NCBI GenBank assembly: GCA_028284945.1
Contig: JANQQJ010000033.1
Span: 62,001-126,000, forward strand
Source: Alphaproteobacteria bacterium
Lineage (GTDB): Bacteria > Pseudomonadota > Alphaproteobacteria > SMXS01
Direction of reading: 5' to 3'
Length of the DNA: 64,000 bases
The position numbers and the translations under genes are program-made. Below are positions 31,360-41,692 of this stretch, piece after piece. The notes below the pieces were generated by a model. The model made no database searches and was not told the DNA's origin. It worked only from the letters and a program-made list of their open reading frames with translations. How positions within the stretch are numbered: position 1 is the stretch's first letter; every line of letters begins with the position of its first letter.

Positions 31360-31437
31360 GGTGGCTGTAGCTCAGTTGGTTAGAGCGCGGGTTTGTGGTA
31401 CCTGAGGTCGGGGGTTCAAATCCCCTCAGCCACCCCA
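31360..31437 (+). tRNA. tRNA-His (GTG)
   Basis: Full cloverleaf with the extra 5' G (31360) pairing with discriminator C (31434), diagnostic of tRNA-His. The anticodon loop TTGTGGT gives GTG. The D arm (GCTCAGTTGGTTAGAGC) and T arm (GGGGGTTCAAATCCCCT) are normal. CCA is encoded (31435-31437), and a repeat starts on it. Confidence 0.97.
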
Positions 31438-31540
31438 GCCTTCGCACTACGTGCTTCGGCTCGGCAAGCCGTAGGCTTGCTTGCCAGAAGCGCGTTAGGA
31501 GAAGGCTGTTGCGCCGAAGTTCTTCAGGAACGAAGGCGGA
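31435..31540 (+). repeat. tRNA-3'-linked repeat, copy A
   Basis: A ~105-bp sequence that begins with the CCA of tRNA-His (CCAGCCTTCGCAC) and continues through CTTCGGCTCGGCAAGCC and GAGAAGGCTG-TGCGCCGAAG to CGAAGGCGG. It matches copy B after tRNA-Leu over nearly its whole length. Internal inverted pieces (AGCCTTCGC against GCGAAGGC, CAGCCTTC against GAAGGCTG) predict folding. It ends 12 bases before a GIY-YIG gene. Confidence 0.8.
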
Positions 31541-31552
31541 CGTTGTTACGCC

Positions 31553-31792
31553 ATGAGATACGTTTGCATCCTCCAGAGTGAATCTGATCAGAAACGGTTC
31601 TATTCAGGGATTACCAGCGATGTTGAGACGCGCCTTCGCGCGCATAGCGCGGGCGATGTTCGCCACACCGCAAAATATAAGCCTTGGCGGGTGAAGACAT
31701 ACATTGCATTTGCAGACGATTCCAAAGCCTACGCTTTTGAAAAGTATCTGAAATCAGGATCCGGTCGAGCTTTCGCTAAAAAGCGATTGTAA
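31553..31792 (+). CDS. GIY-YIG nuclease family protein
   Basis: Small protein of 79 residues, a single GIY-YIG domain. The first motif is read as YVCILQS and the second as FYSGITSDVETRLRAH, which includes the active-site Tyr and Arg. Then come HTAKYKPWRV and the conserved Glu in FEKYLKSGSGRAFAKKRL. Such UPF0213-like proteins are widespread and of unclear role. The gene begins 12 bp after the tRNA-linked repeat, with no clear ribosome-binding site of its own. It could be a housekeeping nuclease or one connected with the repeat. Confidence 0.88.
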   Translation: MRYVCILQSESDQKRFYSGITSDVETRLRAHSAGDVRHTAKYKPWRVKTYIAFADDSKAYAFEKYLKSGSGRAFAKKRL

Positions 31793-34132: not shown

Positions 34133-34217
34133 GCGGGCGTGGCGGAATTGGTAGACGCGCTGGTTTTAGGTACCAGTGGGGTAACCCGTGGGGGTTCAAG
34201 TCCCTCCGCCCGCACCA
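34133..34217 (+). tRNA. tRNA-Leu (TAG)
   Basis: 85-base class II tRNA with acceptor GCGGGCG/CGCCCGC, a D arm with GGCGGAATTGGTAGACGC, anticodon loop TTTAGGT (TAG), a long variable arm (TGGGGTAACCCGT) and encoded CCA. These are leucine-type features. Confidence 0.97.
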
Positions 34218-34314
34218 GCCTTCGCACTTGTGTGCTTCGGCTCGGCAAGCCAGAGGCTTGACGGCCAATGGCGATGGGAGAAGGCTGCTGCGCCGAAGCG
34301 AGAGCGAAGGCGGG
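34215..34314 (+). repeat. tRNA-3'-linked repeat, copy B
   Basis: Second copy of the element after tRNA-His, again starting exactly on the encoded CCA. The shared blocks appear in the same order: CCAGCCTTCGCACT, GTGCTTCGGCTCGGCAAGCC, AGGCTTG, GGGAGAAGGCTG, TGCGCCGAAG and GCGAAGGCGG. It lies between tRNA-Leu and tig, and no nuclease gene follows this copy. Confidence 0.8.
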
Positions 34315-34350
34315 CTGGAATAGCAAGATTAAGAAACGGAACACGGTCTC

Positions 34351-40894: not shown

Positions 40895-40970
40895 GGGCGG
40901 TTAGCTCAGTTGGTAGAGCATCTCGTTTACACCGAGAGGGTCGGCAGTTCGAGCCTGTCACCGCCCACCA
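40895..40970 (+). tRNA. tRNA-Val (TAC)
   Basis: 76-base cloverleaf with acceptor GGGCGGT/ACCGCCC, anticodon loop TTTACAC (TAC), T arm GGCAGTTCGAGCCTGTC and encoded CCA. Immediately downstream is CGCCTTCGGCG, a compact UUCG-type hairpin, inside a CCAC...GTGG frame. Confidence 0.97.
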
Positions 40971-41058
40971 CGCTTCGCCTTCGGCGTTACGTATTGTGGC
41001 CGGGTACTTATCCACGTACCTCGCCAGCGTTATTGCCATCATCTTTTCATTTTGATAA

Positions 41059-41090
41059 CCATCTAATTTGATAAGTATCGAATTAGATGG
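41059..41090. promoter_or_regulatory. Near-perfect 32-bp palindrome, probable ArsR-family operator
   Basis: CCATCTAATT (41059-41068) and AATTAGATGG (41081-41090) are perfect inverted repeats, and inside them GATA and TATC continue the symmetry, so 14 of 16 base pairs match. It ends 11 bp before the preferred ATG of the ArsR-type regulator and probably mediates autoregulation. Confidence 0.75.
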
Positions 41091-41101
41091 AGTATTGTCG
41101 C

Positions 41102-41692
41102 ATGTCCTTCGATGAAACGCTGACGTTGCTTAAGACCGTGAGCGATGAAAGCCGGCTGAGATTATTGGCGATCCTTGAGCATCGCCCTTGCAGCGTCGAA
41201 GAACTAGCAGCACTGCTTGGTCTAAGAGAAGCGACGATCTCGCACCATCTGAGCAAGCTCAAGAGCCACGAGCTGGTCGAGGTGGAACCGGAGGGCAATA
41301 CACGGATCTATACGGCGCGCGCGGAAAGCCTGCAGCGGCTCACGGAAGTCCTTGCCCTGCCGCGAGTACTGAACGCCGCTCGCAAGGAGATCGACTTCGG
41401 GTCGTGGGACGACAAGGTGCTGTCGGACTTCCTGCACCGCGGCCGGTTGCGCGCGATCCCAGCCAGCAGAAAGAAGCGCGTTGTCGTGCTCCAGTGGCTG
41501 GCGGCCAAATTCCCTGAAGGCAAAAAGCTGGCGGAAACCGAGGTCAACGCCCTTCTGGCCAGATTCCATGAGGATTTCGCGACCGTCCGCCGGGAGTTGA
41601 TCGGATATGGCCTGCTGGCACGGCGCGGCAGTTCATATTGGCGGACCAAAAATGCGGCGCTGGCGCTAAACCCCCACGACGAGGCGCGATAG
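41102..41692 (+). CDS. ArsR family transcriptional regulator with DUF2087 domain
   Basis: Protein of 196 residues. The N-terminal ~85 residues are an ArsR winged helix (KTVSDESRLRLLAILEHRPCSVEELAALLGLREATISHHLSKLKSHELVEVEPEGNTRIY). The C-terminal ~90 residues are DUF2087 (KRVVVLQWLAAKFPEGKKLAETEVNALLARFHEDFATVRRELIGYGLLAR). No cysteine metal site is evident in the helix. The ATG at 41102 follows GGAG by 9 bases; an ATG at 41087 lies within the palindrome. It stands alone between two tRNA genes, with no obvious target gene beside it. The effector is unknown. Confidence 0.88.
   Translation: MSFDETLTLLKTVSDESRLRLLAILEHRPCSVEELAALLGLREATISHHLSKLKSHELVEVEPEGNTRIYTARAESLQRLTEVLALPRVLNAARKEIDFGSWDDKVLSDFLHRGRLRAIPASRKKRVVVLQWLAAKFPEGKKLAETEVNALLARFHEDFATVRRELIGYGLLARRGSSYWRTKNAALALNPHDEAR

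Follow-up and report, generated by a model that had tools for sequence, protein, structure and literature searches.

A folded repeat behind the CCA ends of tRNA and tmRNA genes, probably a mobile element partnered with a small GIY-YIG nuclease

Why should two unlike tRNA genes in one bacterial genome be followed by nearly the same folded sequence, and why should one copy of that sequence lead into a gene for a 79-residue nuclease? This question is raised by a 64,000-nucleotide stretch of contig JANQQJ010000033.1 from an alphaproteobacterium (assembly GCA_028284945.1), referred to here as the window. A first-pass annotation had described two copies of a repeat that begin on the encoded CCA of a tRNA gene. 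Their existence is confirmed at positions 31435-31541 and 34215-34315, with 83% identity over 85 bp (E = 6.6e-17 in a BLAST search of the source genome). The features of the window that are relevant to this question are as follows.

31361..31437, plus strand: tRNA-His(gtg), host of copy A (ARAGORN)
31435-31437: CCA of tRNA-His, which is also the first three bases of the copy A fold
31435-31541: copy A as a whole, beginning on the CCA of tRNA-His
31435..31508, plus strand: hairpin I of copy A, (C)CAGCCTTCGC ... AGAAGGCTG
31509..31541, plus strand: hairpin II of copy A, with a symmetric GNA/GNA internal loop and covariation
31553..31792, plus strand: single-domain GIY-YIG nuclease of 79 amino acids, the partner of the repeat
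34133..34217, plus strand: tRNA-Leu(tag), host of copy B (ARAGORN)
34215-34315: copy B as a whole, beginning on the CCA of tRNA-Leu(tag), with no nuclease gene
34215..34287, plus strand: hairpin I of copy B
34288..34315, plus strand: hairpin II of copy B
40895..40970, plus strand: tRNA-Val(tac), a site that bears the element in family relatives
40971..40999, plus strand: probable decayed remnant of the CGCTT class directly 3ˊ of the tRNA-Val CCA, from a by-eye comparison with locus L044

The two tRNA genes do not resemble each other, and the common unit is their 3ˊ flank rather than a duplicated tRNA, as had been proposed. A BLAST search of the same genome yielded no third strong DNA match to copies A and B; four more diverged copies reside outside the window behind tRNA-Met, tRNA-SeC, tRNA-Thr and tRNA-Ala. 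An 11-bp gap separates the end of copy A from the start codon (ATG) of the 79-residue open reading frame (ORF), whose product is indeed a GIY-YIG protein. An ORF resembling HTH regulators (41087-41692) occupies the interval from tRNA-Val to tRNA-Asp in the window, a place at which relatives have a GIY-YIG unit.

The expectation that the repeat folds is supported by z scores of −6.4 (copy A) and −3.3 (copy B) for RNA and −5.6 for copy A as single-stranded DNA. Because both forms fold far better than shuffled sequences, the data are silent on whether RNA or single-stranded DNA is the working form. The consensus for hairpin I is (C)CAGCCTTCGC...GCGAAGGCTG, in which the CA is supplied by the CCA of the tRNA; in copy A, a TG within the element is paired with the CA of tRNA-His. 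Among the 108 leaders that include a complement of the first six nucleotides behind the CCA, this complement is followed by TG in 95, compared to a background of 5%, although copies within a class are related and the count is not one of independent cases. Class variants of hairpin I carry GCCTTCGC, TCCTGC, TCCGCC, CGCTTCG or CCCTACGC. Hairpin II conforms to the consensus G[TC]C.CG[CTG]C-GNA-G...C-GNA-G[GAC]CGG[GA]C, which forms a symmetric GNA/GNA internal loop. Evidence for this stem comes from compensatory changes (38 double-change cells versus a shuffled mean of 11.6), and 98.5% of its cells are paired compared to 27-45% in slid controls.

The protein encoded downstream of copy A matches a single Pfam family, GIY-YIG (PF01541, E = 1e-11). 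Its model predicted by AlphaFold (pLDDT 96.6) comprises the catalytic fold alone, with no DNA-binding domain, and most closely resembles UPF0213 protein BH0048 (1zg2; E = 0.0016 by sequence) and Slx1. The fold and the catalytic Arg and Glu residues place the protein in the GIY-YIG superfamily, and R27, H31 and E63 are invariant across 115 homologues. The family is under purifying selection, with a median dN/dS of 0.08 for 22 pairs. The copy in the window may itself be inactive, because codon 5 (31565-31567) is TGC and places Cys at the GIY tyrosine (Y5C), a position that is Tyr in 97% of the 115 homologues; a Bradyrhizobium tRNA-Ala unit, for instance, retains this tyrosine.

To examine the association from the side of the protein, homologues were collected independently of the repeat from 387 alphaproteobacterial genomes and from contigs of GTDB genomes. 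This collection gave 110 loci, of which 30 came from the class-wide genome sample and 80 were the best from GTDB. The nuclease has a patchy distribution, occurring in 41 of the 387 alphaproteobacterial genomes. At 96 of the 110 loci, a tRNA or tmRNA gene in the same orientation lies no more than 450 bp upstream, while none of the 110 has one on the opposite strand within that distance. These 96 loci comprise 88 tRNA genes (Ala, Leu, Val, Met, Tyr, Ser, Pro, Gln, Lys, His, Phe and Ile) and eight tmRNA genes, the latter in records named for other phyla or classes. The median distance from tRNA to nuclease is 124-153 bp, and in nearly all 96 loci this interval consists of a form of the repeat that begins directly after the CCA. 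Thus, members of this nuclease clade almost never occur without a tRNA or tmRNA and the repeat upstream; the first-pass annotation had named a gene occurring equally often without the repeat as grounds for abandoning its proposal.

The remaining nuclease loci are mostly found behind a tRNA 3ˊ fragment or a tRNA missed by ARAGORN; at L072, L111, L049 and L233, a tRNA 3ˊ fragment is all that precedes the element. At seven loci (L032, L038, L040, L046, L226, L231 and L233), a CCGCCA-type stretch resembling the end of a serine tRNA precedes the element and the tRNA is absent; these elements were possibly displaced by islands or targeted such stretches directly. The repeat occurs in two or three tandem copies before the nuclease gene at L063, L094, L101, L116 and L123. 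One locus labelled Candidatus Kuenenia (L115) is identical around the gene to the alphaproteobacterial locus L024 (G005), but we set this aside as evidence of transfer because it is likely a mis-binned MAG contig.

The reverse approach begins with the repeat. A covariance model was built from 28 leaders, with its tRNA sequence limited to the CCA, and was run against 10 genomes from the order and 289 from the class. Of the 73 hits that were inspected, 56 have their start precisely at the CCA of an ARAGORN-predicted tRNA, and three more in the source genome also begin on a CCA once the whole element is read. In addition, two hits (L173 and L218) lie behind the internal CCA of the permuted, two-piece alphaproteobacterial tmRNA gene, where they occupy the spacer that separates the two pieces. 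At least 61 of the 73 hits therefore start on a CCA on the same strand, at 16 kinds of tRNA. None would be expected to do so by chance, because there are only about 50 tRNA 3ˊ ends per several Mb. Other hits follow half of a tRNA or form a tandem with a preceding copy, and approximately eight are away from tRNAs, including four weak hits in genome G080 and one (L189) that overlaps RNase P RNA; these five were not counted as copies. Tabulation of the genomic copies, which the first-pass annotation had called for, therefore places the repeat overwhelmingly on tRNA CCA ends.

Only 19 of the 73 hits are accompanied by a detectable nuclease gene. Genome G109, at 1.9 Mb, has 12 hits, most of them at different tRNAs and one at a tmRNA, while several genomes (e.g. 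G018 and G080) carry repeats and no detectable nuclease of this clade. The ORF-less repeats are non-autonomous copies that are comparable to MITEs. A search of Rfam matched only the tRNAs and gave nothing on the repeat even at an E value of 5, and collections of 72,556 plasmids and 50,697 phages gave no match to the element.

Comparison of orthologous tRNA loci, another check suggested at the outset, revealed empty sites for both of the tRNAs that host copies A and B. The element is absent from the tRNA-His located beside the same aminotransferase gene in 8 of 8 family relatives, and from the tRNA-Leu(tag) in front of tig in 7 of 7; at these sites the CCA is followed by an ordinary spacer. The relatives instead bear the element at tRNA-Val(tac) or tRNA-Leu(caa), where it is whole, truncated or gene-less, and decayed and truncated copies are common. 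As judged from these sequence comparisons, the empty orthologous sites show that the element is mobile. The kinship is at the family level, and for this reason the relatives do not reveal the border to the exact base. Likewise, genomes G113 and G198 provide one empty site, at tRNA-Leu(cag), but divergence of the flanks prevents the border from being placed to the base. Bradyrhizobium genomes usually have the flanking gene within tens of bases after the nuclease stop codon, which suggests that the autonomous unit is the repeat plus the ORF and little more. No empty tRNA-Ala site was found among the 14 loci from this genus, where the swap of repeat classes alone is readable. There is no sign of a general target-site duplication, as matches to the tRNA end behind 96 ORF-bearing copies and 56 model-hit copies are no more common than with shuffled tRNA ends. 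An exception is L202, where two tandem elements of different class lie behind one tRNA and the last 11 nucleotides of that tRNA, TGTACCCACCA, are repeated between them.

Repeat and nuclease also correspond in kind. Each of the five repeat classes pairs with one of five nuclease clades, with no exceptions, and the four class changes on the nuclease tree (a quick tree of 79 columns) are the minimum, compared to a shuffled mean of 20.7; such congruence is in part expected for a linked repeat and gene that travel together. At a single tRNA-Ala site in Bradyrhizobium, L234 carries class G while L238 and L243 carry class CGCTT, and genomes G113 and G198 differ in class at both tRNA-SeC and tRNA-Leu(taa). 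These class swaps at one tRNA in related genomes suggest that the unit is replaced as a whole and not simply inherited.

The element is probably a selfish mobile repeat of tRNA and tmRNA 3ˊ ends that is driven by a single-domain GIY-YIG nuclease, in a manner resembling REP sequences and their RAYT proteins but with an unrelated enzyme. This reading is based on the location, orientation and fold of the repeat, the congruence and co-inheritance of its classes with the nuclease, its presence and absence at orthologous sites, and its decay. It is essentially the first of the alternatives raised by the first-pass annotation, and it is supported by the location of the copies and the association between gene and repeat; that the nuclease is the agent of movement is an inference. 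A complete unit would consist of a two-hairpin repeat of about 100 nucleotides directly behind the CCA, followed on the same strand by the gene of about 79 codons, with its far end at or near the nuclease stop codon. Gene-less repeats would be non-autonomous and probably moved in trans. The nuclease might recognize its cognate fold, via hairpins with GNAG and CTTCG motifs, and cut a tRNA gene at or behind its CCA. Pairing of the target's CA with the TG of the element would then complete the foot of hairpin I, which could explain why the joint is always behind the CCA. Presumably, transcripts that start at the tRNA promoter read through into the nuclease gene and express it, and the tRNA would remain functional because nothing upstream of the CCA is altered.

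Three other explanations need to be weighed against the mobile repeat. It is unlikely that the nuclease is a free-standing homing endonuclease gene that resides behind tRNAs for their strong promoters and conserved neighbourhood, spreads by allelic homing only, and uses the repeat as a leader or operator. Such a gene would fit a single small GIY-YIG ORF with the orientation of the tRNA strand and a patchy occurrence, and free-standing homing nucleases are known near tRNAs in T4-like phages. However, the majority of repeats lack the ORF and occupy many non-allelic tRNAs per genome, and the same class is present at several tRNAs within one genome (at tRNA-His and tRNA-Leu in G000, and likewise at several tRNAs in G109), which is not the allelic spread of a homing gene. 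Moreover, the joint is exactly at the CCA even in ORF-less copies, where a mere leader would not be kept.

Somewhat less likely again is a host-serving tRNA 3ˊ trailer that acts as a signal for processing, stability or termination, accompanied by a nuclease domesticated to mature the transcript. The exact abutment to the CCA, the strong RNA-level fold with covariation and the conserved orientation would all suit such a role, but no trailer of this type exists at any of the 15 orthologous sites in relatives, which also leaves the tRNA-processing leader of the first-pass annotation unsupported. Furthermore, the tRNA that carries the repeat varies between genomes, classes replace each other at one site, and degenerate copies abound. 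Very improbable is the view that the repeats are attachment-site scars, in which integration and excision of phages or islands leave the same flank and the GIY-YIG gene is cargo. Although tRNA 3ˊ ends are classical integrase sites, and the four loci that follow only a tRNA 3ˊ fragment would be consistent with such events, the unit is generally not followed by a direct repeat of the tRNA end. The unit is only 100-350 bp and encodes the GIY-YIG ORF alone, with no integrase and no excess of tRNA-end matches on its right side. In addition, one structured repeat at 16 kinds of tRNA cannot be the attachment site of many integrases, and the lack of matches among plasmids and phages also argues against this origin.

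Among known systems, the mobile repeat most closely parallels REP/RAYT (TnpA-REP), which likewise combines short folded palindromic repeats, many of them non-autonomous, with a small single-copy enzyme gene beside its cognate repeat and a tie between repeat class and enzyme clade. It works in a similar way yet falls outside that class, because its enzyme is a GIY-YIG protein rather than a Y1 HUH tyrosine transposase, and because it lies behind the CCA of tRNA and tmRNA genes in one orientation, whereas REP sequences are scattered through extragenic regions in both. With GIY-YIG homing endonucleases of the I-TevI and SegB type it shares a catalytic domain within a selfish gene, and the CTTCG/CGAAG motifs of the repeat may fit a CNNNG cleavage motif. 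It differs from them in having a 79-residue catalytic fold alone, a structured repeat and ectopic ORF-less copies. Tyrosine-integrase elements also insert at tRNA or tmRNA 3ˊ ends and leave the RNA intact, but the repeat has neither integrase nor att duplication, spans about 100-350 bp and uses many isotypes per element. The nuclease is closest in fold to Slx1 and UPF0213, and the cleavage of branched DNA by Slx1 would suit a nuclease that reads a fold; it differs in lacking an Slx4-like partner or RING domain and in its genomic context. By analogy, IS200/IS605 elements also generally lack target duplications and pair target bases with their own fold, but they rely on an HUH enzyme that is absent here, and their single-strand intermediates offer a parallel at most.

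Other small GIY-YIG genes show a related arrangement. Within 10 genomes of the order, an inverted palindrome pair (score of at least 11) spans 22 of 39 other single-domain GIY-YIG genes compared to 1 of 37 shifted windows. Genes framed in this manner include L268, L283, L289, L301, L304, L309 and L311, from the source genome and its family relatives, and the framing sequences are common dispersed palindromes such as GTCATTCCCGCGAAAGCGGGAATCC, GTCATTGCGAGGAGCG..., and CCCTTCGACAAGCTCAGGG. In this one order, the tRNA-associated element looks like a specialized offshoot of a general association in which small GIY-YIG nucleases are partnered with palindromes. It is conceivable, though on balance doubtful, that small GIY-YIG nucleases in general are unrecognized mobilizers of common bacterial palindromic repeats. 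For the tRNA branch, a single strand of the element would use the CA of any CCA end to complete its hairpin, a nick would be made behind the CCA by the nuclease, and the freed 3ˊ end would prime copying of the element. This route would require no HUH enzyme, DDE transposase, recombinase or reverse transcriptase.

We found no description of an element that unites a GIY-YIG nuclease, this repeat and tRNA ends in the open-licence literature searched (work outside it may exist) or Rfam, and a search of NCBIfam gave no family that matches the system. The GIY-YIG domain, tRNA 3ˊ ends as insertion sites and repeats moved in trans are all familiar; what is new is the system, which seems to represent a type of mobile element not described before. 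If this reading is true, it would constitute a class of mobile elements with a 79-residue nuclease as its only enzyme and the CCA end of tRNA and tmRNA genes as its address in several phyla. Such a class would account for many GIY-YIG genes annotated as hypothetical and for untidy tRNA 3ˊ flanks, and would offer a small enzyme possibly capable of DNA insertion at universal safe sites. The palindromes that frame small GIY-YIG genes also make the old question of what spreads such repeats directly testable.
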